Positions 46,139 through 61,918 of a stretch of 64,000 nt of DNA are shown piece by piece. Under the pieces are notes generated by a model, which did not search any database, had not been told where the DNA came from, and saw only the letters and a list, made by a program, of their open reading frames with translations. The stretch lies in NCBI RefSeq assembly GCF_033100135.1, contig NZ_CP136920.1, forward strand, positions 248,001 through 312,000. The letters run 5' to 3'. Each line of letters begins with the position of its first letter. Position 1 is the first letter of the stretch. This stretch comes from Rubellicoccus peritrichatus. GTDB taxonomy: Bacteria > Verrucomicrobiota > Verrucomicrobiia > Opitutales > Cerasicoccaceae. Made by a program: the position numbers and the translations under genes.

Positions 46139-46552
46139 ATGAGCCTTAAAACCCACATCGAATTTGTTTCGGATTCTTTCCCTTCTTATCCGAATGAAGA
46201 TGAAGAAATAAACCCGGGAATTTGGGGGAAGCGACTGGCCGAATATTTGATCGATTCACTTCCAAGTCACGGGATTACTCCTAAGGAACCGTATCCAGAA
46301 GATTGGGGCTGGGAGATCCCGATTGAGAACAAAGACTTTCCTATGTTCATCGGATGCAGCAATCAGCTTGAACAAGAAGGAAACCAATTCCTGGTGTTTA
46401 TCGATCCATCAAAATCGAAAATCAGAAAAGGATTATTCAAGAAGATAGATACGACAGCAGAAATCACTCGTGTTTCTGACGCCCTAGAGAAGATTCTATC
46501 ATCACATGATGGAATACGAGAATCACGCTGGTGGGATGAAAATGAACTTTGA
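46139..46552 (+). CDS. Hypothetical cassette protein
   Basis: 137 aa, cytoplasmic. The G-I-W-G-K-R-L-A-E-Y-L near 29-39, P-E-D-W-G-W-E-I-P near 55-63 and F-P-M-F-I-G-C-S-N near 69-77 pattern belongs to a small family often seen in cassette arrays and in single-copy accessory loci. Its function is unknown. The stop overlaps the start region of the SUKH gene downstream (about 10-17 bp), so the two form one unit and are probably co-translated. Confidence 0.6.
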   Translation: MSLKTHIEFVSDSFPSYPNEDEEINPGIWGKRLAEYLIDSLPSHGITPKEPYPEDWGWEIPIENKDFPMFIGCSNQLEQEGNQFLVFIDPSKSKIRKGLFKKIDTTAEITRVSDALEKILSSHDGIRESRWWDENEL

Positions 46553-47357
46553 CGAGCGCCTAAAGATTATCTGGAAAGAACCTCAAAAGCCTGGTACGGA
46601 AGCCCCAGCTGATGCGGTGACGATTAGTGAAGTTGAGGCTAAATTGGGTGTCAAAATACCAGCAGAATATCTGAGTCTAATTAAGATAAAGAATGGAGGG
46701 CATTTTAACTGGTTCAATCATTGCGAGGGTTGCAGTTATATCACTTCGGAACTCTGGGGCATTCGAGAGGTTGGAAAGCAAGATTGGCAAGAGGTCAAGC
46801 AATACATGGAAGAGGAACAAATCGATACGCCTCGGGATATCGATAATCTCTACCCATTCGCGGGAGATGGGCATGAATACATTTGCTTTGACTACCGAGA
46901 TATTGCAAACGATGCGGAACCTTCGATCGCATGCATTGATGTTGAGTGCTTCGACGAAGATACCACGATCGCCCCAACATTTCGCGAATACATCGATAAG
47001 CTTGAGCACCGATCAATATACATGGAGTACGCTATTGAGATTTCTGATGATAGTGCAGAGTTCATTATTCACCTACTGGAAGGGTTGTTTCCAGTTACAT
47101 TTGTTGATAAATGCGAAGAATATAACTCGGACACCTACAATGCCTGCTATCCATCTTTATCTAACTGGAAACAAGGCCTTCCTTTCGATTGGATTTGGCT
47201 TAAGCGTTGTAAATCCAATTCAGGATATCACTCATGTTTTCAAGTGCCGAACGCGACGTGGTTCTTGAGCATTGGAAACAGAGAAGTGCCCACTGAACTG
47301 ATCGAGCATTTTGAAGCTGTTTCGGCTTTTAAAGTCACACCACTCTACAAGCCATAA
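46542..47357 (+). CDS. SMI1/KNR4 (SUKH) family protein
   Basis: 271 aa from the ATG at 46542 (an ATG at 46536 is possible; in-frame starts further up lie inside the gene before). The SUKH signature is clear: I-S-E-V-E-A-K-L-G-V-K-I-P-A-E-Y-L-S-L (about 28-46), I-K-N-G-G-H (49-54), L-W-G-I near 70-73, D-N-L-Y-P-F-A-G-D-G-H-E-Y-I-C-F-D near 95-111, then F-R-E-Y-I-D-K-L-E near 147-155. The C-terminal about 110 residues are an extra domain. It is likely an immunity-type protein. Its partner gene at 46139 is in the same cassette, which could be a protection pair (inference). Confidence 0.75.
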   Translation: MNFDERLKIIWKEPQKPGTEAPADAVTISEVEAKLGVKIPAEYLSLIKIKNGGHFNWFNHCEGCSYITSELWGIREVGKQDWQEVKQYMEEEQIDTPRDIDNLYPFAGDGHEYICFDYRDIANDAEPSIACIDVECFDEDTTIAPTFREYIDKLEHRSIYMEYAIEISDDSAEFIIHLLEGLFPVTFVDKCEEYNSDTYNACYPSLSNWKQGLPFDWIWLKRCKSNSGYHSCFQVPNATWFLSIGNREVPTELIEHFEAVSAFKVTPLYKP

Positions 47358-47377
47358 TCAAGATGCAGCAGGTGGCG

Positions 47378-47409
47378 CCTAACGGCGCGGCTGTGCCCGA
47401 CGTTATCCT
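47378..47409 (+). other. attC-like site, short
   Basis: GCCTAAC at the left and GTTATCC at the right, with GGCGCGGCTGTGCCCGAC between. It lies 20 bp after the SUKH stop and 24 bp before the VOC gene ATG. It is unusually short for an attC (32 bp), so it may be a decayed site. Confidence 0.5.
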
Positions 47410-47433
47410 AAAAAGATCTTTCAACACGCTTAG

Positions 47434-47820
47434 ATGAATTTAAATCAAATAACGATTCCATCGCATGATGTAAAAAGAGCAGTCTCGTTTTACGAGCGTT
47501 TAGGGCTGCGTTTGATTGTCGATTCTGCGCCACGGTATGTTCGATTTGAATGTCCAGATGGCGATTCAACATTTTCGATTCATCACGTAGAAGAGGAGAT
47601 TTTTCCAGGAGTGATGATCTATTTTGAATGTGAAGATTTGGATGGCGAATTTGATCGGCTTCGTAAGCTAGGTATCGAGTTTGACTGTAGTCCGACAGAT
47701 CAAAATTGGAAATGGAGAGAAGCTCATTTGTCAGACCCTGACGGGAACCGTTTGATATTATTTCGCGCCGGAGTTAATCGAAAGAATCCACCATGGCGAG
47801 TGAATCCGATTGAGGGATAA
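47434..47820 (+). CDS. VOC family (glyoxalase/dioxygenase-like) protein
   Basis: 128 aa. The vicinal-oxygen-chelate fold is visible: I-P-S-H-D-V-K-R-A-V-S-F-Y-E-R-L-G-L near 8-25 and V-R-F-E-C-P-D-G-D near 35-43, with the metal-ligand Glu/His region (I-Y-F-E-C-E-D-L). It closes with W-R-E-A-H-L-S-D-P-D-G-N-R-L-I-L-F near 92-108, the classic second half. It could be a lactoylglutathione lyase-type enzyme or an antibiotic-binding protein. VOC genes are frequent cassette cargo. The TAA stop is inside the 5' core box of the next attC. Confidence 0.8.
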   Translation: MNLNQITIPSHDVKRAVSFYERLGLRLIVDSAPRYVRFECPDGDSTFSIHHVEEEIFPGVMIYFECEDLDGEFDRLRKLGIEFDCSPTDQNWKWREAHLSDPDGNRLILFRAGVNRKNPPWRVNPIEG

Positions 47821-47948
47821 CAAGGCATCACATCCAACCACTGAAAGCGTCTTGAGTTTTCGATATTGATTGGTAGCTTGGGGGAGTTCTATCCGAGATA
47901 GAGCTGATCGGTTATTCGTTCAGCGGCGGATGGATTTCAACGTTATGC
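47815..47948 (+). other. attC-like site, best example
   Basis: It begins GGATAAC (47815-47821, containing the VOC stop) and ends GTTATGC (47942-47948), 6 bp before the next ATG. The left CATCCAACCACTGAAAGCG and the right CGTTCAGCGGCGGATG arms pair with few mismatches and an extra base, as in the extrahelical-base pattern of attC. At about 134 bp it fits the size range of long attC sites. Confidence 0.65.
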
Positions 47949-47954
47949 GAAAGA

Positions 47955-48482
47955 ATGAAAAAGATCGATCTAGTTGAAGCTCCCGAGAGCAAGAAGTCAG
48001 TGCTTCGTCAACTGATCGAGCTCTATGAATATGACCTCTCTCCATACACGGGCTATGAATTGAACGACCACGGATATTTCGGCTACCGTTATCTGGATAA
48101 TTATTGGACAGAAACCGACCGCTTTGTCTATTTTATCATGGTCGAAGAGAGAATCGCAGGATTCGTAATGGTGAACAGTTACTGTGAGGCATCGAAGGAT
48201 CCGAATGCGAGAACGATAGCAGAATTCTTTGTCATGAAGACGTTCAGGCGCCAGCGAATCGGTCAAGCAGCAGCGGAAAGAGTATTCAACCTGTTTCCCG
48301 GAACGTGGGAAATTCACCAGTATTTAGAGAACAAGAAATCAGTGATGTTTTGGGAAAAGGTTGTTGAAGAACACACGTCGGGAAATTTCGAAAAGAAGGT
48401 AATGATTACTGAAGACGGTGAGCAACAAGTCATCCTCTTTAACAATGCAGGAACTCGGAACAAGGCATGGCTATCCAAGTAA
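47955..48482 (+). CDS. GNAT family acetyltransferase-like protein
   Basis: 175 aa. It is an N-acetyltransferase fold with a less common front end: an L-R-Q-L-I-E-L-Y-E-Y-D-L-S-P-Y helix near 18-32, R-F-V-Y-F-I-M-V-E-E-R-I-A-G-F-V-M-V near 56-73, then E-F-F-V-M-K-T-F-R-R-Q-R-I-G-Q-A-A near 88-104 (motif A, R/Q-x-x-G), and W-E-I-H-Q near 116. This subgroup often acts on unknown small molecules. It has a good ATG at the cassette junction, and no attC-like box follows it. Confidence 0.75.
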   Translation: MKKIDLVEAPESKKSVLRQLIELYEYDLSPYTGYELNDHGYFGYRYLDNYWTETDRFVYFIMVEERIAGFVMVNSYCEASKDPNARTIAEFFVMKTFRRQRIGQAAAERVFNLFPGTWEIHQYLENKKSVMFWEKVVEEHTSGNFEKKVMITEDGEQQVILFNNAGTRNKAWLSK

Positions 48483-48627
48483 TGCTTACGATTATTTCAA
48501 AAAATACGACGATATTGATTTCACGCTCTTGATTCGTTGCAGAGAAAGCTGGATTGGAGTCCGAATGGATTATGACAATTATTCGGAAGATTCTAACATC
48601 ATCGACCTTAAAGAAATCAAATCATGA
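48445..48627 (+). CDS. Short ORF overlapping the GNAT gene, possible C-terminal remnant
   Basis: 60 codons from an ATG inside the gene before (48445), ending in TGA that overlaps the ATG of the next gene (ATGA). From about 48480 the sequence reads A-Y-D-Y-F-K-K-Y-D-D-I-D-F-T-L-L-I-R and on to E-I-K-S, with protein-like composition. It may be the last third of a deleted cassette gene fused to the 47955 gene. It is also possible that the small ORF serves to couple translation of the acetyltransferase at 48624. No family. Confidence 0.4.
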   Translation: MQELGTRHGYPSNAYDYFKKYDDIDFTLLIRCRESWIGVRMDYDNYSEDSNIIDLKEIKS

Positions 48628-49121
48628 TAAAAGGCGCAACAGTCGCAGATGCAAAGAGAATTGCTGAAATTCATGTTCAGACATGGAAGGTGGCTTATGA
48701 TGGAATCGTTACATCGTCCTACCTTGAGAGCCTGTCGATAGAGAGTCGTGCAAATCGTTGGGAGAAAAGCCTGTCGCAATCCACTGAAGGCACCTTGGTA
48801 TACGAGGAAACAGCAAGAGTCGTTGGTTGGGTTTCATATGGACCTTGCCGGGATAAGGGAGAAAGTGACAAAGGAGAGATTTATGCGATCTATGTGCTGC
48901 CAGATCATTGGGGTAATAAATATGGGAAAAAGCTGATACTTGCAGCTGAAGAAAATTTGCGACAAAGTAATTTGAAAGAGATCACTTTGTGGGTATTAGA
49001 AAAGAATTCGAGAGCCAGATTGTTTTATGAGCAGAGAGGCTACTCAGCCGATGGAATGAAAAAAGAGTTAACCATGGACGGCATTAAACTTATTGAATTG
49101 CGATACGCAAAAAGCATATAA
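48624..49121 (+). CDS. GNAT family N-acetyltransferase
   Basis: 165 aa. Typical GNAT: D-A-K-R-I-A-E-I-H-V-Q-T-W-K-V-A-Y near 8-24, G-W-V-S-Y-G near 68-73, E-I-Y-A-I-Y-V-L-P-D-H-W-G-N-K-Y-G-K-K-L (about 86-105, the acetyl-CoA P-loop, with the usual R/Q-G-x-G here N-K-Y-G), and N-S-R-A-R-L-F-Y-E-Q-R-G-Y near 130-142. The start overlaps the preceding short ORF by 4 bp. The target is unknown. It is followed by an attC-like spacer. Confidence 0.85.
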   Translation: MIKGATVADAKRIAEIHVQTWKVAYDGIVTSSYLESLSIESRANRWEKSLSQSTEGTLVYEETARVVGWVSYGPCRDKGESDKGEIYAIYVLPDHWGNKYGKKLILAAEENLRQSNLKEITLWVLEKNSRARLFYEQRGYSADGMKKELTMDGIKLIELRYAKSI

Positions 49122-49128
49122 AAATAAG

Positions 49129-49184
49129 CCTCCGGCCACAAGTCCGGTAGCGGCATACCGTCATCCGACAGCTCAGACATTAGC
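49129..49184 (+). other. attC-like site
   Basis: CCTCCGGCCACAAGTCCGG on the left and TCATCCGACAGCTCAGACATTAGC on the right. The right half has the G-C-T-C-A-G-A-C-A-T-T-A-G-C arrangement, close to a GTTRRRY end. It ends 8 bp before the next ATG. Confidence 0.45.
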
Positions 49185-49192
49185 AGAAAATC

Positions 49193-49726
49193 ATGTTCAT
49201 ACGCCAAATCAACGACAGGACGAAAATTAGCCTATCCGTACCGCAGTATGCGGACGAACTATTTGCGCTGACCGACAAGAATCGAACAATGCTTCGACAA
49301 TGGCTGCCCTGGCTTGATCACACTAAGGAGCCCAAAGATACACGAGATTTCATCACTGCCCAGCTCAGTCGCTTCACTGAATCGAAAGCCCTGCACACCA
49401 CAATATTCTATGATGACCGCATTGCTGGAGTCCTGGCTTTTAACACCATTGATTCTCAAAACAGAGCAGGACATATCGGCTACTGGCTTGGCTCGGATTT
49501 CCAGGGAAAAGGCATCATGACAGAATGTGTGAAAGATCTGATGAAAATCGGAGAGGACTTTTTCTCACTCGAGCGATTTGAAATACGCTGTGCCGTTGAA
49601 AATTCAAAGAGTCGAGCAATACCTGAGCGTTTGGACTTTCAAAATGAAGGGACAATCCGCCGTGCCGAACGTGTATACGAGAACTGGTACGATCACATAG
49701 TTTATGGAAAGATTAAAAGCTGCTAG
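49193..49726 (+). CDS. RimJ/RimL-type GNAT acetyltransferase
   Basis: 177 aa. Features of the ribosomal-protein/peptide N-acetyltransferase subgroup: R-Q-W-L-P-W-L near 35-41, G-V-L-A-F-N near 79-84, then I-G-Y-W-L-G-S-D-F-Q-G-K-G-I-M-T-E-C-V (about 95-113) with the Q-G-K-G-I-M pyrophosphate loop. It continues I-R-C-A-V-E-N-S-K-S-R-A-I-P-E-R-L-D-F near 133-151. The usual N-x-x-S-x-x-I-x-E-R-L-G-F has D in place of G. Likely substrates are N-terminal amines or small molecules. Confidence 0.85.
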   Translation: MFIRQINDRTKISLSVPQYADELFALTDKNRTMLRQWLPWLDHTKEPKDTRDFITAQLSRFTESKALHTTIFYDDRIAGVLAFNTIDSQNRAGHIGYWLGSDFQGKGIMTECVKDLMKIGEDFFSLERFEIRCAVENSKSRAIPERLDFQNEGTIRRAERVYENWYDHIVYGKIKSC

Positions 49727-49731
49727 TGGGT

Positions 49732-49784
49732 GCCGACAACGACTAAGCTGCGTGACTCACTGCGACTAACTCAAACGTTAATTA
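49732..49784 (+). other. attC-like site
   Basis: CCGACAACGACTAAGCTGCG on the left and CGACTAACTCAAACGTTAATT on the right. The right half is close to the TTAACTCAAGCGTTAGAT end of classic resistance-cassette attC sites. It lies a few bases after the GNAT stop. Confidence 0.55.
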
Positions 49785-49841
49785 AAGAATGATGCTATCT
49801 TGAATCGTCGCCTCTTGACCCCAAGGATGGACACGTTAGGT
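49785..49841 (+). other. Possible gene-less cassette unit
   Basis: 57 bp between two 3' core boxes, GTTAATT (49778-49784) and GTTAGGT (49835-49841). GTTAGGT fully matches GTTRRRY. The TATCTTG and CAAGGATG arms within it pair with one extra base. It looks like a bare attC or a cassette that lost its gene. Confidence 0.4.
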
Positions 49842-49851
49842 AAATAAAAAC

Positions 49852-50313
49852 ATGGGACTTCCCCCTCCAATTCAACCGACTGACAGCAAGAGGGCTTCAG
49901 ATGCAGAGCATTTAAAGTTACTGGCGATCTTTCATTATATTCTCGGAGCGCTGAGTCTATGCAGTATTCTATTTATTCTACTGCACTACATGCTGTTCAG
50001 TACCTTCTTTAATAATCCAGATTTCTTTCCAGAAGGAGAAAAACCTCCGGAAATGCCTGAAGGATTCTTTATACTTATTATGGCCTTCTATGTTTTGGGG
50101 GCTCTCTTTTCGATTGTTTCAGGAGGACTGCTTATTGCATCAGCAAGATTTATCCAGAAGAGGAAAAATCGAACGTTTTCGATAATAGTTGCTGGCCTGT
50201 GCTGTCTAATGTTTCCATTCGGGACGATATTAGGAGTATTTACACTGATGAAGTTACTATCCGATTCCGTTAAGATTGCTTATACTGAAAGCGAAAGCAC
50301 CGGGGTAGCATAA
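49852..50313 (+). CDS. Small membrane protein
   Basis: 153 aa with a soluble start (about 1-20) and four hydrophobic segments (about 25-48, 73-98, 108-118 and 120-142). The S-L-C-S-I-L-F-I-L-L-H-Y and G-A-L-F-S-I-V-S-G-G-L-L-I-A-S-A-R patterns are typical of small four-helix membrane proteins often annotated only as hypothetical. Membrane proteins of this size are common cassette cargo. Its TAA stop is inside the 5' core-like box GCATAAC. Confidence 0.7.
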   Translation: MGLPPPIQPTDSKRASDAEHLKLLAIFHYILGALSLCSILFILLHYMLFSTFFNNPDFFPEGEKPPEMPEGFFILIMAFYVLGALFSIVSGGLLIASARFIQKRKNRTFSIIVAGLCCLMFPFGTILGVFTLMKLLSDSVKIAYTESESTGVA

Positions 50314-51759: not shown

Positions 51760-52812
51760 ATGCTATTAAATCTGGTAAGCGCTGGCCGGACAAGCATGGG
51801 CTTTGTTACAAGCCTAATGGTATTATTCTCTGCCGTTGCCATGCGGGCCGAGGAGGAAATCCACAACATCCAGAACATTTTTGAGCCAACCTCAACCCCG
51901 GCTGAAGGCATTCTGGAAATCGCCTGGGTTGTGTTAACGATCTGTGCAGGCATCTTCGTTGTTGTTGCAGGATTAATGGTCTATGCCATCATCCGCTTTC
52001 GGGCAAAGAAAGACGATGATGGCTCCGAACCCGCTCAAGTTTATGGTAGCAATCAGATCGAAATGGCCTGGACGGTTATCCCGCTCCTGATTGTGCTGGT
52101 ACTGGTCTTTGTCACCGCCCGCAAGACTATCACCATCCAGAACATGCCTTTCCCTGAGGGGACACTTGAAGTGAACATCATCGGGCATCAATGGTGGTGG
52201 GAAGTCGAGTATCCGCAATATGGTTTTATAACCGCTAACGAAATTCACATTCCGGTCAGTGAAGGCGACATTAAGCGGCCCACAATCATCAATCTGGAGT
52301 CTGCTGACGTCATTCATAGCTTCTGGGTTCCCAAGCTGGGAGGCAAACGGGATGTCGTCCCCAACTATCCAAATCAAATCTGGTATGAGCCTGATGAAAC
52401 CGGTATTTACCTGGGCAACTGCGCTGAGTTCTGTGGCACACAGCACGCCAACATGCAGATCCGAGTGGTCGTGCAAACCCCGGAAGACTTTGAAGCCTGG
52501 CTGAAGAACCAACAAACCCCTCCGCGCGAAGATGCCAGCGTCGCCACCGGACGGCGCATGTTTGAATCACTCGCCTGCATCAGTTGTCACGCCATTGGAG
52601 AAAAAGGTGCGAACAACGGATTTGGCCCGGACCTGACTCACCTGATGAGCCGTCAAACCATCGGCGCCGGAGTCGCGGATACCAACTACGATGACATCCA
52701 TCAGTGGTTGAAAGACCCGGACTCGCTGAAACCCGGTTGTTACATGCCCGATATGAAACTTACCGATGACCAACTCAAACACCTCACTGAGTATCTACTA
52801 ACGCTACACTAA
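51760..52812 (+). CDS. coxB: Cytochrome c oxidase subunit II with fused cytochrome c domain (caa3-type)
   Basis: 350 aa. It has an N-terminal signal or membrane segment and a second membrane helix near 57-78, then the cupredoxin domain with the CuA site: H186 in V-I-H-S-F-W-V-P, and C221, E223, C225, H229 and M232 in N-C-A-E-F-C-G-T-Q-H-A-N-M. The aromatic G-H-Q-W-W-W-E-V region is near 142-149. Residues about 258-350 are a class I cytochrome c (C-I-S-C-H at 273-277, an axial Met in C-Y-M-P-D-M). It carries electrons from the bc complex to CuA at the periplasmic face. The first gene of the oxidase operon. Confidence 0.93.
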   Translation: MLLNLVSAGRTSMGFVTSLMVLFSAVAMRAEEEIHNIQNIFEPTSTPAEGILEIAWVVLTICAGIFVVVAGLMVYAIIRFRAKKDDDGSEPAQVYGSNQIEMAWTVIPLLIVLVLVFVTARKTITIQNMPFPEGTLEVNIIGHQWWWEVEYPQYGFITANEIHIPVSEGDIKRPTIINLESADVIHSFWVPKLGGKRDVVPNYPNQIWYEPDETGIYLGNCAEFCGTQHANMQIRVVVQTPEDFEAWLKNQQTPPREDASVATGRRMFESLACISCHAIGEKGANNGFGPDLTHLMSRQTIGAGVADTNYDDIHQWLKDPDSLKPGCYMPDMKLTDDQLKHLTEYLLTLH

Positions 52813-52822
52813 CCTCTAAGCA

Positions 52823-54520
52823 ATGCCACCCAACGAAAGTGACGCAGCCCTTTCTTCCCCGATGGAAACTCCGGATTCCATCCAACTGGAAGCAGTCAAG
52901 CGCAGCAAAGGATTGGAGTGGCTGATGACGGTCGATCACAAGCGACTCGGCGTCATGTATATCTGCTCTGGGCTGTTCTTCTTTGTCGTGGCCGGGATCA
53001 TGGCGTCCCTGATTCGTATCCAGTTGGCAGTGCCACAGAATGATTTTCTTCCACCGGATACATTCAACCGCATGTTTACCATGCATGGCACGAGTATGGT
53101 GTTTCTCGTTGGTATGCCGATCATAGCCGGAATGGCAAACTTCCTTGTCCCGCTGATGGTTGGAACACGGGACATGGCCTTGCCAAGACTCAACGCCTTC
53201 GGCTTTTGGATCTTTCTCTTCGGTGGCTGCCTACTCTATTATAGTTACATTGGCGGACCCGGGCTCTACGGTGCTGGGAGTGCACCGGATGTAGGTTGGT
53301 TCGCTTATGCTCCGCTGACCAGCAAGGCTTTCTCACGCGGCCATACAGTCGACTACTGGGCATTGAGTTTGATTCTGACCGGGATTGGAAGTCTGGCGAC
53401 TGCCGCCAACATCATCGTCACCGTTTTCTGCCTGCGCTGCAAAGGCATGACAATGTTCCGCCTACCGTTGTTTGTCTGGATGATGCTGGTCACGGCCTTC
53501 CTCATGGTTCTTGCGCTCCCCCCACTCAGTGCTGCGCAAATCATGCTATTGCTCGACCGTTTCCTCGGCGCTGGATTCTTTGACACACAGGAAGGCGGCT
53601 CAGCGGTGATCTGGCAGCACTTCTTCTGGATATTCGGCCACCCGGAAGTTTATATCCTGATCATGCCGGGCTTTGCGGTTGCTTCGGAAGTCATTCCGGT
53701 GTTTTCGCGCAAGCCGATCTTTGGTTATCCTGTAATGGTTGCCGCCTCGATCATGATCACCTTTATCAGTCTTGGTGTCTGGGCGCACCATATGTTCACC
53801 GTCGGCATGACCTCGGTGGCCAACGTATTCTTCGCCACTTCGACGCTCTTGATTGCGATTCCCACCGGGATCAAGATCTTCAATTGGCTAGGAACCATGT
53901 GGGGCGGTAAAATACGCTTCGCCACGCCGATGCTCTTTTGCATGGGCTTCCTCTTCCAGTTCCTCGCCTCAGGGTTAACCGGTGTCATGCTCGCAATCGT
54001 CCCCTTCGACTGGCAACTGAGTGACTCCTACTTCGTTGTCGCACACTTTCACTACGTGCTGGTCGGCGGGTTGCTCTTCACCATCTTTGCCGCAATCTAT
54101 TATTGGTATCCCAAAGTCACCGGACGCATGTTGAGCGAGAAGATCGGCAAGATGCATTTCTGGATATTTGTCCTTGGCTTCAACATGACCTTTGGCGTCC
54201 AACACATCCTGGGAATCCTCGGAATGCCCAGACGCATTTATACTTACGACACCGATCGTGGTTGGGACTTGTGGAACATGATTTCCTCGATAGGTGTGAT
54301 TTTTCAAGGCATCGCGATTCTGCTCTTTATTTATAACATTCTGAGCTCACTTCGCAAAGGCAAGGAAGCTGGTCCTGACCCATGGGATGCCTGGACCTTG
54401 GAGTGGGCCACCTCTTCACCGCCACCCTCTTATAACTTTGCCAAACTCCCTGAAGTGAAGAGCCGTCGTCCGCTTTGGGATGAAAAGCACCCTGATGACC
54501 CCGACTGGAGGCATGAGTAA
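52823..54520 (+). CDS. coxA: Cytochrome c oxidase subunit I
   Basis: 565 aa with 12 membrane helices. It is the heme-copper catalytic subunit and a proton pump. Signature sites are H-P-E-V-Y (about 272-276, the CuB His and the His-Tyr crosslink Tyr), W-A-H-H-M-F (about 321-326, the other CuB His pair), and H-F-H-Y-V-L-V-G-G (about 409-417, the heme a and a3 ligands). The first heme a ligand is in F-T-M-H-G-T (about 87-92). The sequence belongs to the A-type oxidases. It starts 10 bp after coxB. A dispersed palindrome separates it from coxC. Confidence 0.95.
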   Translation: MPPNESDAALSSPMETPDSIQLEAVKRSKGLEWLMTVDHKRLGVMYICSGLFFFVVAGIMASLIRIQLAVPQNDFLPPDTFNRMFTMHGTSMVFLVGMPIIAGMANFLVPLMVGTRDMALPRLNAFGFWIFLFGGCLLYYSYIGGPGLYGAGSAPDVGWFAYAPLTSKAFSRGHTVDYWALSLILTGIGSLATAANIIVTVFCLRCKGMTMFRLPLFVWMMLVTAFLMVLALPPLSAAQIMLLLDRFLGAGFFDTQEGGSAVIWQHFFWIFGHPEVYILIMPGFAVASEVIPVFSRKPIFGYPVMVAASIMITFISLGVWAHHMFTVGMTSVANVFFATSTLLIAIPTGIKIFNWLGTMWGGKIRFATPMLFCMGFLFQFLASGLTGVMLAIVPFDWQLSDSYFVVAHFHYVLVGGLLFTIFAAIYYWYPKVTGRMLSEKIGKMHFWIFVLGFNMTFGVQHILGILGMPRRIYTYDTDRGWDLWNMISSIGVIFQGIAILLFIYNILSSLRKGKEAGPDPWDAWTLEWATSSPPPSYNFAKLPEVKSRRPLWDEKHPDDPDWRHE

Positions 54521-54658: not shown

Positions 54659-55255
54659 ATGAGCAATTCCAACACAGCTACAGCAGAATCCCAGCAGGAA
54701 TGGAAGTTACCTTCTGCTCCGAAAGTTGGGATGATTTGCCTGATCGTGATGGAGACGGCGCTCTTCACGATCTTCGTCGTGGCATATCTGTATTACATTG
54801 GAAAGAGCTTGAATGGGCCATTTCCCAAGGACTTACTCGAAGCGCCAATCATCGCCTCGATATGTCTGCTTTCGAGCAGTGGAACCGTCATTATGGCCGA
54901 GCGTGCTTTCAAGCGCAAAGACAAGGCAAAGTTCCGTTTGTTCTGGGGAATCACCTGGCTGCTTGGAGCAACGTTCATTGCATTGACTGCGGTGGAATGG
55001 AAAGGGCTTCTCGAAAATGGGCTGGCAATCGACACCAACCTCTTTGGTTCTACTTACTATCCACTGGTTGGTCTACATGCCACACATGTCATCATCGGCC
55101 TGTTTCTCCTAGCCTTGATATTCATTCTTTCGATTACCAATCACCTGCCTTTTGAACATGTCATCCCCATGGAAATGATTTCCTGGTACTGGCACTTCGT
55201 CGACGCCATCTGGATCGTCGTCTTCACCGTCGTTTACATCATCGGGGTTTATTGA
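54659..55255 (+). CDS. coxC: Cytochrome c oxidase subunit III
   Basis: 198 aa with five membrane segments. It is the short (COX3/CyoC-type) form that supports the catalytic subunit. Visible are K-V-G-M-I-C-L-I-V-M-E-T-A-L-F near 22-36, the family's acidic helix, then L-L-G-A-T-F-I-A-L-T-A-V-E-W near 101-114, G-L-H-A-T-H-V-I-I-G near 137-146, and a final W-Y-W-H-F-V-D-A-I-W-I-V-V-F near 175-188. It has the expected position after coxA, with about 140 bp in between because of the repeat. Confidence 0.88.
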   Translation: MSNSNTATAESQQEWKLPSAPKVGMICLIVMETALFTIFVVAYLYYIGKSLNGPFPKDLLEAPIIASICLLSSSGTVIMAERAFKRKDKAKFRLFWGITWLLGATFIALTAVEWKGLLENGLAIDTNLFGSTYYPLVGLHATHVIIGLFLLALIFILSITNHLPFEHVIPMEMISWYWHFVDAIWIVVFTVVYIIGVY

Positions 55256-55399: not shown

Positions 55400-56230
55400 A
55401 TGTCTGAGAAACACCGCATAGAGCTTCCCGCACCGACCTACTGGCCAATGATTACGGCCTTGGGGGTTACTCTTTTGCTCGCAGGTTTTGTCACGCACTG
55501 GTTTTTCAGCTTTGTCGGTCTGGTGCTCGGCGTTCGTGGCGCAATCGGATGGGTCTTTGATGTATTTCCAACGGCGAAGCTTGAAATAGAGGAAGTCGAA
55601 ATTGCCGAGGGGACTGGCCTCCCTGTAGTCACCACTGCGCGTAAAGTGTCACACTTAAGCCAAGGCGTTGGCGGACACCGTGTTCGCTTCCCCGAGAAAG
55701 TGCATCCGATGCGGGCGGGCATCAAAGGTGGCTTGCTTGGTGGTGCCGTCATGGCTGTCATGGCAATGGCTTACGGATTTATCGCCGAAGGCAGTCTTTG
55801 GTGGCCAGTCAATCTCCTCGCCGCCATCGCCCTACCCTCCCTCCAGGATGCCAGCGTCGAAACACTAAAGCAGTTCTCCGCCCTTGGCCTCTTGATCGGA
55901 ACCATCGCTCATGTTTTGACCTCGTGTTTTGTTGGCCTCCTCCTAGCCGCGGCGCTGCCGATGTTTCCGCGTTATGCTTTTGTTTGGGCAGGACTGCTCA
56001 GTCCGATGTTCTGGAGTGCCCTTTTTTATGCTTCGGTTGAGTTCATCGACCCTGCCATGGCCAAATACGTCAGCTGGCCATGGTTTATTGCCTGCCAGTT
56101 CAGTTTCGCACTCGTCGCAGGTTATTACATTAAAAAGTCCGAGAAGATCGAAACCCTACAAACTTATCCGATTGCGGATCGAGCAGGTCTTGAACATGCG
56201 CCACCTCCGGAAGACAAGTCTGATGATTAA
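55400..56230 (+). CDS. Membrane protein of the oxidase operon (subunit IV-like N-terminus)
   Basis: 276 aa. The N-terminal segment P-A-P-T-Y-W-P-M-I-T-A-L-G-V-T-L-L-L-A-G (about 10-29) and the second helix ending G-W-V-F-D-V-F-P look like the small subunit IV found in some actinobacterial and related caa3 oxidases. The part from about 95 to 240 has five or so further helices and is not recognised. The tail is hydrophilic. It has the right position for an oxidase-associated protein. The gene overlaps the next by 8 bp. Confidence 0.55.
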   Translation: MSEKHRIELPAPTYWPMITALGVTLLLAGFVTHWFFSFVGLVLGVRGAIGWVFDVFPTAKLEIEEVEIAEGTGLPVVTTARKVSHLSQGVGGHRVRFPEKVHPMRAGIKGGLLGGAVMAVMAMAYGFIAEGSLWWPVNLLAAIALPSLQDASVETLKQFSALGLLIGTIAHVLTSCFVGLLLAAALPMFPRYAFVWAGLLSPMFWSALFYASVEFIDPAMAKYVSWPWFIACQFSFALVAGYYIKKSEKIETLQTYPIADRAGLEHAPPPEDKSDD

Positions 56231-56957
56231 TCCTATGCGTTTGCCCCAGATAACACTATTCAGCCTGATTGTCCTGATACTATCCGGCTGTGACTGGATG
56301 CCGGGCAAGCCAAAGCGTGCCGATGAATACATACGGCCCGAGAACATAACAGACTTCGCAACTTTGTACAATACCAACTGCGCGTCCTGTCATTCACTGG
56401 ATAGCAAAACACTCGCCGCCGCACGCCCATTGAACGATCCTGTCTATGTCGCCTTCGCTGGTAAGGACATGATCAAAAAGATAACGTCTGAAGGAGTCGA
56501 TGGCACCACCATGCCCGCAGCTTTGGATAGCAAAGGAGGTAACCTGACCGAGAAGCAGATTGATATCATTGTTGATGGCATCATCAAAAGTGCGGGACGA
56601 TTGCCGGACGAAAAAGCAAAGATACCACCGTACTCTGCGCCACTAGGAGACGCAAAAGCCGGGCTGAAAGTCTACACCGAATTCTGCGCCAGTTGTCATG
56701 GTAAGGATGGCAACGGCGGAACCCTGGCAGGTTCAATTATCAATAGCGATTACCTTGCACTGGTCAGTGACCAAACTCTACGCACCACTATCGTTGCGGG
56801 GCGAACTGATTTAGGCATGCCGGACTGGCAGCGCCTGCATCAATCCAAGCACATGAGCAATTCAGATATTGCTGATGTCGTTGCCTGGATCGCCTCGCAC
56901 CGTACCGAAACAAACCTTCAGCTTGAACAAGAAGCCGCAACAGGAGACAAGCCATGA
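56223..56957 (+). CDS. Diheme cytochrome c lipoprotein
   Basis: 244 aa from the ATG at 56223 (overlapping the stop of the gene before by 8 bp), or the ATG at 56235. A lipoprotein signal with L-I-L-S-G-C puts the lipidated Cys at 23. Two heme c sites are seen: N-C-A-S-C-H (53-57) and F-C-A-S-C-H-G-K-D-G (155-159), with Met candidates in T-T-M-P-A-A and D-L-G-M-P-D-W. It takes electrons on the periplasmic face, between bc complex and oxidase. In this operon it probably replaces cytochrome c1. The next gene overlaps by 4 bp. Confidence 0.88.
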   Translation: MINPMRLPQITLFSLIVLILSGCDWMPGKPKRADEYIRPENITDFATLYNTNCASCHSLDSKTLAAARPLNDPVYVAFAGKDMIKKITSEGVDGTTMPAALDSKGGNLTEKQIDIIVDGIIKSAGRLPDEKAKIPPYSAPLGDAKAGLKVYTEFCASCHGKDGNGGTLAGSIINSDYLALVSDQTLRTTIVAGRTDLGMPDWQRLHQSKHMSNSDIADVVAWIASHRTETNLQLEQEAATGDKP

Positions 56958-57565
56958 GTGACGAATGTCCACACAAACCTTCCGAAGAAAAGACTCCGTC
57001 TGCTGATAATGGCGCACCACCGGGCTCGCATCCCTGCTGTTGTGGCGGTGGCGGTGGAGCAAAGAAAAAACCGATGAGCCCGGAGCGGAGGAACTTCATG
57101 CTTAAGTTCGGCATGGGCCTCAATGTCGCCGCAGGTGCCATGATTGGCATTCCCATTATCGGTTATCTTTTTTCAGCGTTTAAAAAAGAGAGCCCGCAAG
57201 TCTGGATATCACTGGGAGCGGTTGATCAGTTTGAGGTCGGTAAAATAAAGATGGCAACCTATGTAAACCCTGGAGCCAAACCATGGGATGGAAAAAGCAG
57301 CGACATCCCCTGCTGGGTCCGGCGCAAAAGCAAAACCGAGTTCCAAATCTTTGCGATCAACTGCACACACTTGGGCTGCCCTGTCCGTTGGTTTGAAGAG
57401 TCAAAGCTCTTCCTCTGCCCCTGCCATGGTGGCGCTTATTATGAAAATGGTGACCATGCAGCAGGACCACCACCACGCGGACTTTACGAATACGAAAACC
57501 GCATCGTGAAGAACGAGCTCCAAGTCAAAGGTGGACAAATCCCAACCCTTTCACAACCAGTCTGA
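56954..57565 (+). CDS. Rieske iron-sulfur protein of a bc complex
   Basis: 203 aa. A short cytoplasmic part has a cysteine/glycine-rich stretch (H-P-C-C-C-G-G-G-G-G near 26-35). A twin-arginine-like R-R-N-F sits before the single membrane helix (about 52-73), and the Rieske domain lies outside. The 2Fe-2S ligands are C137 and H139 (C-T-H-L-G-C) and C155 and H158 (C-P-C-H-G-G). C142 and C157 form the usual disulfide. It moves electrons from quinol to cytochrome c. The next gene, cytochrome b, overlaps by 1 nt. The N-terminal Cys/Gly cluster is uncommon. Confidence 0.9.
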   Translation: MSDECPHKPSEEKTPSADNGAPPGSHPCCCGGGGGAKKKPMSPERRNFMLKFGMGLNVAAGAMIGIPIIGYLFSAFKKESPQVWISLGAVDQFEVGKIKMATYVNPGAKPWDGKSSDIPCWVRRKSKTEFQIFAINCTHLGCPVRWFEESKLFLCPCHGGAYYENGDHAAGPPPRGLYEYENRIVKNELQVKGGQIPTLSQPV

Positions 57566-59043
57566 TGAATTCCAAACTTCGCGATATCGCCCTCTGGTTT
57601 GACGATCGACTCCAGATTTCCAAAGTCTGGAATGCGACCGCTGGGCATCACATCCCGAAGTCTTCCGCGAGCTGGTTCTATGTCTTTGGCAGCGCGACTA
57701 TGATCTGTTTCATGATTCAGGTGCTGACCGGTATCTGCCTCGCCCTCATTTATCAGCCATCAGCAGAAGAAGCTTATGCAAGTCTACTTTACTTGAACTA
57801 CGAGCAACCACTGGGGTGGCTTCTGCGTGGTATCCATTATTGGGGATCCAATTTCATGGTCGCCATTATGCTGATGCACATGACTCAGGTGTTCATGTTT
57901 GGTGCCTATAAGTACCCTAGAGAACTGACTTGGGTCAGCGGTGTTATCCTGTGCCTGCTCACGCTTGGCATGGCCTTCACCGGACAGGTTATGCGCTGGG
58001 ACCAGGATGCCTACTGGGGACTCGGCATCGGTGTGGCGATCATGGGACGGGTGCCCTTTATTGGACCCGAATTAACACACATGCTCCTCGGTGGACCGAT
58101 CATTGGTGGTGAAACCTTATCGCGATTTTTCACACTGCACGTCTTCGTCATACCTGGTGGGATACTCGCACTACTCAGCTTACACCTCCGCATGGTCTTG
58201 AATAAGGGGATCAATGAATATCCCGAAGTTGGCAAGCCAGTGGTGAAAGAAACCTATGTGGAAGAATATGAAGCACAGGTTAAAAAAGATGGAACGAAGT
58301 TTTTTCCAGACGCCATTGGCAAGGATCTCGTCTTTGGTGGGATCGTCATTGGCCTGGTTGTGATGTGCGCCATTCTGTTCGGCCCCAAGGGCCCGGAGGG
58401 TATTCCCGATCCAACATTGATCGATGCTAGCCCAAGACCCGACTGGCCGTTTATGTGGATTTTTGCACTGGCTGCGCTCATGCCTCCCTACATGGAAACG
58501 GTCGTCTTACTCGTCGGTCCCGTGATCGGCATAGGACTGATGATCGCCCTGCCCTTTTACGATAATGTTGGTGAAAAGAAGTGGACCATCCGCCCTGTCA
58601 GTGTGCTTGTCGTAATCATGGCTGCATTGAGCCTGGGAACACTCACCTGGTATGGTGTCACCAGCCCTTGGTCCCCGGAAATGGAAGCCTGGAGCAGTGA
58701 ACCGACACCGAGTCATTTGCTCGAAGGACGCACTCCATTGGAGCTACAAGGCGCGATGGTTCTGCAATACAAGCAATGCCGTAACTGCCATTCGCTTGAT
58801 GGAATCGGTGGCAAACGTGGCCCCGACTTAACTGATGTTGCCGACCGTTTGACACACGATCAATTGGTTCGTCAAGTGGTCCAAGGTGGTGGCAATATGC
58901 CGGCGTATGGGCAAAACCTATCGCCTGCCGAAATTGCTGCCCTTGTGGCCTTTATGGAAACCTTGCATGCAGATGGCCGCTTACCCGCCCAACGTGCAAC
59001 GAATTTGCAAAACTCAGACCGAGTGCCTAGTTTGGAGAATTAG
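57565..59043 (+). CDS. Cytochrome b with C-terminal cytochrome c domain
   Basis: 492 aa. The N-terminal part is the four-helix heme-binding core, with His pairs H91/H105 (G-I-H-Y-W...L-M-H-M-T) and H192/H207 (T-L-H-V-F...S-L-H-L-R); 13 and 14 residues lie between them, as in b6-type proteins. A quinol-site motif P-D-W-P-F-M-W stands near 290-296, where P-E-W-Y is usual. Four further helices follow. Residues about 395-475 are a class I cytochrome c (C-R-N-C-H-S-L-D-G, G-G-x-N-M-P-A-Y). The b-c fusion, with the diheme lipoprotein, could take the role of c1. Confidence 0.88.
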   Translation: MNSKLRDIALWFDDRLQISKVWNATAGHHIPKSSASWFYVFGSATMICFMIQVLTGICLALIYQPSAEEAYASLLYLNYEQPLGWLLRGIHYWGSNFMVAIMLMHMTQVFMFGAYKYPRELTWVSGVILCLLTLGMAFTGQVMRWDQDAYWGLGIGVAIMGRVPFIGPELTHMLLGGPIIGGETLSRFFTLHVFVIPGGILALLSLHLRMVLNKGINEYPEVGKPVVKETYVEEYEAQVKKDGTKFFPDAIGKDLVFGGIVIGLVVMCAILFGPKGPEGIPDPTLIDASPRPDWPFMWIFALAALMPPYMETVVLLVGPVIGIGLMIALPFYDNVGEKKWTIRPVSVLVVIMAALSLGTLTWYGVTSPWSPEMEAWSSEPTPSHLLEGRTPLELQGAMVLQYKQCRNCHSLDGIGGKRGPDLTDVADRLTHDQLVRQVVQGGGNMPAYGQNLSPAEIAALVAFMETLHADGRLPAQRATNLQNSDRVPSLEN

Positions 59044-59063: not shown

Positions 59064-61346
59064 ATGAATGCCACCGCAGAAGCTGTCCTGCGCTCGTGGA
59101 GTCTGGATCATTTCATCCTCGCCTACCTTTGCCTGCTTGTTGCTGTTTATAGCCGAGGCTGGAAACTGCTATCACGACAATTGCCGAACCGTTTTCCACG
59201 ATGGCGGCTCATTTGTTTCATCACAGGAGTCATTACGGTTTACATCGCCGTCGCATCTCCACTGGATGCCTTTGCTGGTTTTCTTCTACAGGTCCACATG
59301 ATTCAGCATCTCCTGCTGACAGTAGTGGCCCCGCCACTCATTTTACTGGGATCCCCGTGGCTGCCCTTGCTGCGCGGCTTACCCAAGGCATGGGTCCGCG
59401 ATGGGATCGGCCCATTAATCAATGGACCCTTCGGTCGTACTTTAATTCGCACCTTCGGAAACCCCGTCCTGGCCTGGATCCTCTTTGTCGGCAGCACACT
59501 GACTTGGCATATCCCCGGACTCTATGATCGGGCTTTACGATACGAGAGCTGGCATGCAGCGGAACATTTCTGTTTCTTTGTTACCGGGTTACTATTCTGG
59601 TGGCATATTGTATTACCCTGGCCAGCTCGCCAAAAATGGTCACGCTGGTTAATCATTCCCTACATTCTTTCGGCTGACTTGCTTAACACAGTGCTTGCCA
59701 GTTTTCTATCTTTCTATGATCAGCCACTGTACCCTGTCTATGAGACAATGCCACGCCTCTGGGGAATCAGCGTCATGGATGACCAGATCGCGGCAGGCGT
59801 CATCATGTGGGTTCCAGGTTCCATTGCATTTCTTGTTCCAGCCTTTTTCATTACGGCAAAACTACTATCACCTAAACGTGGTGTTCGGCCCTCAGACACT
59901 CCGACAAAGAATCAGCAAGCAAAGCAAGCCGAGCCTCGCACTAGTCAGCCAAAAGGCAAACCATGGATCACTGCAATTGCGCAATCTCCTGCTAGGCGAA
60001 GCATCCAGATCATCATGCTCCTGCTTGCCATCGCTGTCATTGTGGATGGCTTCTGGGGATCAGAAGTTTCCTCGATGAATCTCGCAGGAGTCCTGACCTG
60101 GACTTACTGGCGAGGGTTCAGCGTCATTGCTTTGCTAACTTTGGGGAATCTGTTTTGCGCAGTATGTCCGTTCACATTTTTCCGAAACCTGGCTCAGCGT
60201 TTCCTTCCGAAAGGAAGACAAAGGAGCTGGCCTAAAAAATTGGCTAACAAATGGCCTGCCGTGATTCTGCTCGTTATATTTCTTTGGGCCTATGAAGTCT
60301 TCGACCTCTGGGACCGCCCGATAGCTACAGCCGGACTGATTGTTGCGTATTTCGCCAGCATTGCTCTCATTGATTCATTTTTCCGCAAAGGAAGTTTTTG
60401 CAAGTATGTCTGCCCTATCGGACAATATCACTTTGCCTTTTCAAGCATTTCCTCAGGTGAAGTCAAAGTCGAGAAAACTGATGTCTGCGCAAGCTGCACC
60501 ACACATGACTGCCTGCGAGGCAACGAACAACAAAGCGGTTGCGAAACAGCGCTCTTCTTGCCAAGCAAAGCAGGCAACATGGACTGCACCTTCTGCCTCG
60601 ATTGCGTACGGGCGTGCCCACATGACAACATTACTATTCAATCCGTAATCCCCAGCCAGGATTTAACGAACAACGATTTGCGCTCCACCATCGGGCGTTA
60701 CTCGGAGCGAACAGACATCGCTGCATTGCTCATGGTTTTCTGCAGCGGGGCATTCATTAACGCCGCCGGGATGACAGCTCCCGTACAGGATTTATTCCAA
60801 AGGATCACCAATCAGTTCGGCATCGCTGAAAGTATACTGGTTTCAGTCTTCATCATAGCAGGCGTCGTTGCTGTTCCATTGGCTCTGGGATATCTCGCAG
60901 CAATTCTCACGCGCACATTAGTCACCAAAGGTAAAAGCTGTCGCGAACTAATGGTTCGTTTTGCCTACGGATTCGTCCCCTTGGGTGCAGCTGTCTGGGC
61001 AGCTCATTTTCTATTCCACCTTGCAACCGGTGCTTTCACTGCGGTGCCCGTTTTCAAACGTATCCTCGCTGATCTAGGTATTGGAAGCATGGGCGATGCC
61101 ATCGACGGACTTAGCAACCCGGGCTTTAGCGGAAACTGGATCATTAACATGGAGTTCGTCTTATTGGACGCAGGTTTGCTTGCCTCCCTCTATGTTCTGT
61201 GGAGAATAAGTGAAAGAACTTTTGAGAAACAGCGAGTGGCAGGCTTTCTGATTTGGGCAAGCATCGCCGTGTTATTATTTATGGCAGCAATCTGGATAAT
61301 ATTTCAACCAATGGAAATGCGCGGCACGCAATTAAGCGGCGGCTAA
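59064..61346 (+). CDS. Fusion of CtaG-type oxidase assembly protein and polyferredoxin (NapH/CcoG-like)
   Basis: 760 aa. Residues about 15-270 are the seven-helix caa3-type CtaG/YtaF domain (H78-x-x-x-H82 in H-M-I-Q-H, T-W-H-I-P-G, W-W-H-I-V-L-P-W, D-D-Q-x-A-A-G-V-I-M-W). This family helps insert copper in cytochrome oxidase. After a linker (about 270-305) comes a membrane 4Fe-4S part: C365-x-x-C368-P and C446-x-x-x-C450-P at membrane edges, as in NapH/NosR/CcoG, then C475, C478, C483 and C493 and C508, C511, C514 and C518, close to two 4Fe-4S clusters. About six more helices end it. It is the penultimate gene of the operon. Confidence 0.75.
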   Translation: MNATAEAVLRSWSLDHFILAYLCLLVAVYSRGWKLLSRQLPNRFPRWRLICFITGVITVYIAVASPLDAFAGFLLQVHMIQHLLLTVVAPPLILLGSPWLPLLRGLPKAWVRDGIGPLINGPFGRTLIRTFGNPVLAWILFVGSTLTWHIPGLYDRALRYESWHAAEHFCFFVTGLLFWWHIVLPWPARQKWSRWLIIPYILSADLLNTVLASFLSFYDQPLYPVYETMPRLWGISVMDDQIAAGVIMWVPGSIAFLVPAFFITAKLLSPKRGVRPSDTPTKNQQAKQAEPRTSQPKGKPWITAIAQSPARRSIQIIMLLLAIAVIVDGFWGSEVSSMNLAGVLTWTYWRGFSVIALLTLGNLFCAVCPFTFFRNLAQRFLPKGRQRSWPKKLANKWPAVILLVIFLWAYEVFDLWDRPIATAGLIVAYFASIALIDSFFRKGSFCKYVCPIGQYHFAFSSISSGEVKVEKTDVCASCTTHDCLRGNEQQSGCETALFLPSKAGNMDCTFCLDCVRACPHDNITIQSVIPSQDLTNNDLRSTIGRYSERTDIAALLMVFCSGAFINAAGMTAPVQDLFQRITNQFGIAESILVSVFIIAGVVAVPLALGYLAAILTRTLVTKGKSCRELMVRFAYGFVPLGAAVWAAHFLFHLATGAFTAVPVFKRILADLGIGSMGDAIDGLSNPGFSGNWIINMEFVLLDAGLLASLYVLWRISERTFEKQRVAGFLIWASIAVLLFMAAIWIIFQPMEMRGTQLSGG

Positions 61347-61918
61347 TGACAATGCATTTAATTAAGAACATTATTCTCATTAAATGTATTTTGCTTGCAT
61401 CGCTTTGTTGGGCAAAATCAGACAATGCTGTGCCCATTGCCAGTCAACAAATGGGTGATCAAAGTATTGTCATTTTTGCCCATCCAATTCCGCTCAGAGC
61501 AGGACCAATACGACTGGAGGCATTTCTGATTGAAACGGAAAACGGCTCACCAATTCTGGATAACACGCTTGTCGGCTCACTCATACCAGTAGCACTCGAT
61601 GATAGCGCCGCTGCCTGGATTCCTCCCTGCTGCCGTATGGAAGACGGAGTTGCTGGCGAAGATGGAATAACTCTGGAATTCGCAAAGACTGATTCCGGCA
61701 ATCAACTCTTACAAGGTGCTAACATTGTCATCCAAGAGCCAGGCGAATGGCTGCTTGAGTTAGATGTTAATGCAAATCAAAGCGACCTTGGCCGCGTGCA
61801 AATTCCCCTAACGATCTTAGAACCACTACCACCACTGCAAAGCCATTGGCCCTGGCTGATTCCTCTGCCACTGGCTATCGGAGCTTTCATTTTCAGCCAG
61901 CGCAGGAAACGCGAATAG
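61346..61918 (+). CDS. Exported single-span membrane protein, end of respiratory operon
   Basis: 190 aa from the ATG at 61346, which overlaps the stop of the previous gene by 1 nt (TAATG). The signal peptide runs to about residue 22. The exported domain (about 25-160) reads V-I-F-A-H-P-I-P-L-R-A-G-P-I-R-L-E-A-F-L-I-E-T, a beta-sandwich pattern like FixH/YtkA or copper-handling domains, with W-I-P-P-C-C-R-M in the middle. One membrane helix lies near 168-183, then a basic tail. A role in copper or heme delivery is a guess from position. Confidence 0.6.
   Translation: MTMHLIKNIILIKCILLASLCWAKSDNAVPIASQQMGDQSIVIFAHPIPLRAGPIRLEAFLIETENGSPILDNTLVGSLIPVALDDSAAAWIPPCCRMEDGVAGEDGITLEFAKTDSGNQLLQGANIVIQEPGEWLLELDVNANQSDLGRVQIPLTILEPLPPLQSHWPWLIPLPLAIGAFIFSQRRKRE

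Follow-up and report, generated by a model that had tools for sequence, protein, structure and literature searches.

Proteins of the Caa3_CtaG type, oxidase assembly factors as in Bacillus subtilis, are described in one survey as having seven helices, outer histidines and an invariant aspartate, D249 (PMC8239418). Because the survey considered only sequences predicted to have 6 to 9 helices, a fusion of CtaG with an Fe-S membrane protein would be missed. CtaG fusions as such are already known: CtiP of Corynebacterium glutamicum combines CopD-like helices with a Caa3_CtaG part, and without it the bc1-aa3 supercomplex becomes less stable (PMC9145763). For Caa3_CtaG systems, the source of Cu(I) for CuB and CuA, the side of the membrane and the reductant are described as open (PMC9145763, PMC13344008). 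Two further systems should be kept in mind. CcoG is reported to possess two tetranuclear clusters and to reduce Cu(II), and CopZ of Archaeoglobus fulgidus is a copper carrier fused to a Cu(II)-reducing Fe-S domain (PMC7558416). It has been proposed that, in organisms lacking CcoG, copper loading of the oxidase may depend on a cupric reductase of its own in the membrane, and YtkA/CtaK take part in oxidase assembly (both PMC13344008).

Here, we describe a protein in which CtaG is naturally joined to a putative Fe-S electron path, a combination for which no published description was found in the open-licence PMC literature; it makes the question of where Cu(I) originates, on which side and by which reductant directly testable in one protein. 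The gene lies at 59064..61346 on the forward (+) strand of the window (the whole stretch of 64,000 nucleotides that was analysed), begins with an ATG at 59064, ends with a stop codon at 61344-61346 and reads as a single open frame for a CtaG::NapH-like protein of 760 aa, just as the original prediction had it. The host genome is a single contig of 5,798,774 bases, so there is no contig join near the gene. In a scan of a genome collection with one genome per species, 133 stretches matched, 111 encode relatives and the best 80 were retained. Both parts occupy one open frame in 38 of these best 80, with the same type of junction in many assemblies, and in 41 the Fe-S part stands alone. At the one other locus (L070, 8001-10300, from Gemmatales bacterium KatS3mg105), the two parts are spread over several frames, perhaps owing to sequencing errors or a decayed gene. 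That an assembly or annotation artefact united two genes has, given the one contig and the 38 loci, a negligible probability, and we rejected it, having found nothing in its favour. This part of the original interpretation is supported: the fusion is genuine, of long standing and conserved, and it lies within an oxidase operon.

In the N-terminal part, Pfam Caa3_CtaG (PF09678) matches residues 27-267 (59142..59864, + strand) with E 8.9e-57 and 192.6 bits against a gathering cut-off of 27.7. The features of the B. subtilis type are present, with seven membrane-spanning helices on the model, conserved histidines (H78, H82, H149, H164, and H168, invariant in 39 fusions, that is, the window's and the 38 others) and an outer aspartate, D240, found in 38 of the 39 and equated with D249 by its position at the start of helix 7 rather than by alignment to the B. 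subtilis protein. The NCBIfam equivalog model for the Bacillus-type CtaG, TIGR02737, scores 79.6 bits, which is far under its cut-off of 279.35. The difference from the B. subtilis type is the additional Fe-S membrane part at the C-terminus, some 450 aa in length, which follows a K/R-rich linker (residues 270-309; 59871..59990, + strand) that is predicted to be cytoplasmic and in which model confidence is low around residues 271-300. The likeness to CtiP is that of a big CtaG fusion serving a bc-aa3 system together with a membrane-anchored outer copper protein (PMC9145763); in CtiP, however, the CtaG is C-terminal and its partner CopD-like, whereas here CtaG is N-terminal and the partner carries Fe-S motifs. 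The domains of CopZ are soluble, cytosolic and unrelated to those of the fusion.

The Fe-S part had been called NapH/CcoG-like, and only the first half of this label held. NCBIfam napH_ (TIGR02163) matches residues 355-525 with E 5.7e-12 and 45.7 bits, far below its curated cut-off of 213.05, and Pfam Fer4_5 (21.6 vs 22) and Fer4 (16.7 vs 21.1) also fall below theirs. The part is a relative of NapH/MauN and not a member, with a shared core and, after it, five more helices with outer His/Met residues. CcoG/RdxA/FixG resembles the fusion in being a membrane protein with two [4Fe-4S] sets in an oxidase-assembly context; however, neither TIGR02745 (CcoG) nor Fer4_18 nor FixG_C matched the fusion protein at E 0.01. 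CcoG membership was therefore rejected, all three being found in the genome's own CcoG (TIGR02745 at 447.8 bits), to which the fusion shows 23% identity across 86 aa. Among the other fusions, TIGR02745 reached only E 0.032 on L033, and its match in G086 is again the fusion, at 20.2 bits vs 316.7.

A protein encoded on a Pseudanabaena plasmid matches the C-part with E 2e-25 and about 25% identity over 86% of the C-part. It is a cNMP-binding membrane Fe-S protein, which we take to be akin to FesM, reportedly a component of cyanobacterial cyclic electron flow (cited in PMC9324425). It is homologous across the membrane Fe-S region, with an N-terminus of the cNMP-binding and Sigma54-activator type where the fusion has CtaG, and the NapH/FesM-like label is closer than the CcoG-like one. 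Both matches speak for an alternative in which the Fe-S half is a quinone or ferredoxin electron carrier of NapH/FesM type, giving electrons to or taking them from the bc-caa3 chain, and the fusion to CtaG only co-localises and co-regulates the two. Against this, H652 and the MxM pair of the fusion, to which we return below, are not kept in the cyanobacterial protein.

The structural model was made with AlphaFold2 from an alignment of 88 rows (mean pLDDT 89.7, pTM 0.75, weak in the linker). No solved homologue was found by sequence at E 1, and the model of the 760-aa protein had no Foldseek match to known folds at E 0.001; its best VIA Z of 5.9 is uninformative for a helical model this long. 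In the topology that fits, the N-terminus is outside and is followed by the seven helices of CtaG; the linker and the Fe-S domain are both cytoplasmic, and there are nine more helices. Counts of K and R per loop on the model's helices, with boundaries chosen by hand, show more positive charge on the inner side in 39 of 39 CtaG parts, in 38 of 39 fused C-parts (leaving out the Fe-S loop) and in 44 of 45 other C-parts.

There are 12 cysteines in the C-part: C365/C368 in a CxxCP motif (residues 365-369; 60156..60170, + strand), C446/C450 in a CxxxCP motif (residues 446-451; 60399..60416, + strand) and two sets of four assigned to [4Fe-4S] clusters (C475, C478, C483, C493 and C508, C511, C514, C518; 60486..60617, + strand), which are predicted to be cytoplasmic. 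All 12 are invariant in the 39 fusions, in agreement with the predicted eight cysteines for two 4Fe-4S clusters; when 84 C-parts are compared, 11 of the cysteines never vary and C368 is present in 83. The CxxCP and CxxxCP motifs exist as had been proposed, but their supposed position within the membrane was not borne out: both the model and the charge pattern put them at cytoplasmic helix ends. CuA and Sco require reduced cysteines, and one SCO gene was found in each of the 4 genomes searched, so one might consider that these motifs and the cluster cysteines act in thiol redox, keeping the cysteines of CuA or of a chaperone reduced. We regard this as highly improbable, as every cysteine is on the predicted cytoplasmic side and the spacing of the cluster cysteines suits Fe-S ligation.

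Over 81 C-parts (the 84 minus L032, L070, and L055), conservation reaches 93% or more at 89 of 455 positions. Among the 16 His/Met positions, M570 (codon at 60771), H648 (61005), H652 (61017), M750, and M752 (both within 61311-61319) are kept in 98-100%, and the other 11 in 91% or less. All five lie in the C-terminal helices (60771..61319, + strand) and on the predicted outer face, where on sequence and model they form a candidate metal site. A fused half that carries copper across the membrane toward CtaG, with its clusters setting the redox state, may be compared with the CopD part of CtiP, a protein for which a role in copper import has been proposed and with which a C-terminally anchored CopC is associated (PMC9145763), and the nine extra helices with their outer His/Met residues would suit such a path. 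The Pfam search of the fusion gave no CopD match, though, and there is no conserved His/Met path across the membrane because the only His/Met residues kept in at least 98% of the 81 rows are the five predicted outside, which makes copper transport by this half improbable.

The fusion gene is preceded, on the same strand, by a set of oxidase and cytochrome genes: cox2 with a C-terminal cytochrome c domain (51760..52812), cox1 (52823..54520), cox3 (54659..55255), a membrane protein with a weak Cyt_c_ox_IV match below the cut-off (55400..56230), a diheme cytochrome c (55974..56957 in the ORF list, the true start being probably near 56190), a Rieske protein (56954..57565) and cytochrome b with a C-terminal cytochrome c domain (57565..59043). 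Neighbour counts were taken on six-frame stretches. At least two of cox1-3 are present at 18 of the 27 fusion loci with at least 5 kb upstream; at the other nine there are fewer, that is, none at eight and one at L049, where the contig starts. The whole order cox2-cox1-cox3-...-cytochrome b/c-fusion recurs in L033, L035, L042, and L052 among others. Scans for promoters and terminators gave counts close to those of shuffles.

The gene downstream (61346..61918, + strand) starts on the fusion's stop codon, with which it overlaps, and encodes 190 aa with a signal-like N-terminus, an Ig-like domain and a C-terminal helix (model pLDDT 89.1). Its best structural match is CrdA of Helicobacter pylori (Z 12.7, 2.1 A over 102), followed by the copper or iron proteins FetP, P19, FtrA, and HftA (Z 10.6-12.1), with a DUF4426 protein of unknown function also among the best (Z 12.0); the Foldseek search of the same model gave E 1.4e-5. 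Neither Pfam YtkA nor FixH matched it at E 1, and a homologue at L059 reaches only E 0.08-0.11 with these models. New relative to the original prediction are this protein with a copper/iron-protein fold and the outer His/Met set. In CcoG, the Ig-like domain (FixG_C) is part of the same chain, whereas here an Ig-like protein has a gene of its own and may be analogous to that domain. A similar gene follows 24 of the 33 fusions with enough DNA. FtrABCD was considered as an analogue and dropped, FtrD being described in the available text only as belonging to no known redox family.

For the separate Fe-S genes, the neighbour counts include four further non-fused rows where the DNA allowed. A YtkA-type gene lies upstream in 33 of 39, a count that is not independent, the model having been built from 26 proteins of the same loci; the upstream protein of one representative (L073) matches Pfam YtkA with E 1.5e-11. 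Upstream, 29 of 39 also encode a multi-His membrane protein; on the other side, 34 of 41 have a gene for a relative of the downstream protein. By profile comparison, the downstream families of fused and separate operons align with a probability of 98.4, and the fused-type family aligns with the YtkA-type family at 94.8. A histidine directly after the likely end of the signal peptide, with the cleavage site judged by eye, is found in 12 of 12 aligned downstream proteins of separate operons and in 0 of 16 others. Among the 41 Fe-S-alone loci (of the best 80 of 111 relatives), the retrieved DNA contains a CtaG in three (L088, L093, and L107, with the Fe-S gene first) and cox genes in only two (L084 and L095, Chloroflexota).

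A His-rich membrane protein of 200 aa is encoded at L080:2579-3190 and 20 other loci. It has conserved histidines (HWxEH, WHHIEH, ELHLFYN, YYHMFPP) and a terminal Cys pair, has no Pfam match and is possibly a metal-binding membrane protein; in Acidobacteriota, among other groups, its gene precedes those of the YtkA-type and Fe-S proteins. In L078, L100, L104, and other Acidobacteriota loci, the YtkA/Fe-S operon is followed by genes for an RnfD/NqrB-like membrane protein and for several FG-GAP/ASPIC-UnbV proteins, which may point to a bigger system that has no name so far.

Established, then, are the single polypeptide, the conserved cysteines and His/Met residues, the operon and a clade pattern among the CtaGs; topology, metal sites and copper binding we infer from sequence and model. 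From its operon, its CtaG identity and its retention in reduced genomes, we consider it probable that the protein is an oxidase biogenesis factor. Our main reading, with a probability of about 0.45, is that it is an assembly factor for copper centres in which the Fe-S half would reduce Cu(II) for CtaG at the outer face; by analogy with CcoG, and with the proposed dedicated cupric reductase, this is the likeliest specific role for that half. The protein would serve the biogenesis of the heme-copper oxidase of its own operon and probably also of the bc-type partner. Copper would be held by the CtaG half at the conserved outer His/Asp and passed to the oxidase, electrons would enter the fused half on the cytoplasmic side, where the two [4Fe-4S] clusters would take them up together with the CxxCP/CxxxCP motifs, and would cross the membrane to the outer His/Met site, and Cu(II) would there be reduced and kept as Cu(I). 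The membrane-anchored Ig-like protein encoded downstream may give or take copper at the outer face.

The original suggestion that electrons could reduce copper before its transfer is indirectly favoured by the five His/Met residues predicted outside and by neighbouring proteins of copper type, and it is somewhat weakened by Nap-linked relatives with the same His/Met site. HxxxH and MxM are kept in the distant relatives L004/L005 (26% identity), one of which adjoins a molybdopterin-oxidoreductase gene (NapA/formate-dehydrogenase type) and NapG- and NapH-like genes, and three more such loci have the same nap-type neighbours as read from sequence only. A Deinococcus plasmid protein keeps HxxxH/MxM in part. 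Since these proteins share the residues, the site may serve something other than copper. Also counting against the main reading are the scarcity of cox genes at the 41 Fe-S-alone loci, the nine fusion loci with fewer than two cox genes upstream and the lack of a downstream-type gene at some fusion loci and in two reduced genomes. The NapG- and NapH-like neighbours, and the Rieske/cytochrome b complex encoded in the fusion's own operon, count in favour of the electron-carrier alternative; the copper-type neighbours (YtkA, CrdA/P19 fold) at both fused and separate versions count against it, and we think it unlikely overall. Met/His-rich N-termini in L004 and L005, a Met/His-rich tail in L093 and YHS domains in another divergent relative fit metal handling of some kind.

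A bolder form of the copper-reduction reading, which we put forward tentatively, is that this is a second kind of bacterial cupric reductase, which would lead from cytoplasmic [4Fe-4S] clusters to an outer copper site of two His and three Met and which is unrelated to CcoG as a whole protein. If true, such a reductase, fused to CtaG in five phyla and separate beside YtkA-type genes in others, would tie the insertion of copper directly to its reduction. The fusion also offers a concrete hypothesis for the greater part of the Fe-S partners, whose family is labelled only as "4Fe-4S binding protein".

The divergent Fe-S relatives beside NapG/NapH-like genes (L133:7187-15274, L121, L134, and L135) are from Verrucomicrobiota-order genomes. 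They are an extra gene beside two NapH-like ones; one has YHS domains, and two have Met/His-rich N-termini.

The fusion loci are assigned to Verrucomicrobiota, Planctomycetota, Acidobacteriota, Myxococcota, and Pseudomonadota, mostly as MAGs, and the closest locus, at 63% identity, is from an uncultured Opitutales bacterium. In 387 genomes sampled from the phylum (E 1e-40), the full fusion was found in four and the C-part only in two; of 54 relatives, the majority from the same order, only the window's genome has the full fusion. With five phyla, four of 387 genomes and one of 54 relatives, the fusion is therefore widespread but patchy. Two of the four fusion genomes are one-contig genomes of 0.9 Mb, which we infer to be symbionts; in these, the fusion is the sole CtaG and lies beside the sole COX1 match, and no protein of the 61346-61918 type was found in them. 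The retention of the fusion in such genomes argues that it matters to respiration. The window's genome has a second CtaG without the Fe-S part, so this part is not required for CtaG action as such.

The original prediction would have been undermined if most relatives were two separate, unlinked genes. The answer is split: the best 80 of 111 loci are divided, as given above, between fused and Fe-S-alone forms. In the CtaG tree, 35 fused rows form one clade (SH-aLRT 90) whose sister is the three CtaGs adjacent to an Fe-S gene, and 24 standalone rows, including the genome's second CtaG, are on the other side; this is a quick tree, for which all standalone rows were drawn from the order to which the window belongs. 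In every row sampled, this lineage of CtaG therefore has the Fe-S partner either in the same protein or next to it. On the C-part tree (82 rows, with long branches for L032 and L004/L005), the distribution of fused and separate forms calls for two state changes, and therefore one gain with one split, or two gains, both fit.

One apparent second fusion should be set aside. In G022, a 782-aa frame suggested another CtaG fusion, but this frame is an overlap with neighbouring genes; CtaG is separate there and, as read from the sequence, has its own gene in an operon with cox1-3 and cytochrome b. The window's genome holds four COX1 genes: besides that of the window, a second lies near the standalone CtaG, a third is some 2 kb away from the true CcoG and the fourth is more distant, with COX1-related positions outside the window at G000:C1 4218644, 2788805, and 3211065. 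Farther upstream in the window, the genes are unrelated to the oxidase: a low-GC stretch directly before the operon (46506-50313) encodes a SUKH-1 protein and three consecutive GNAT acetyltransferases.
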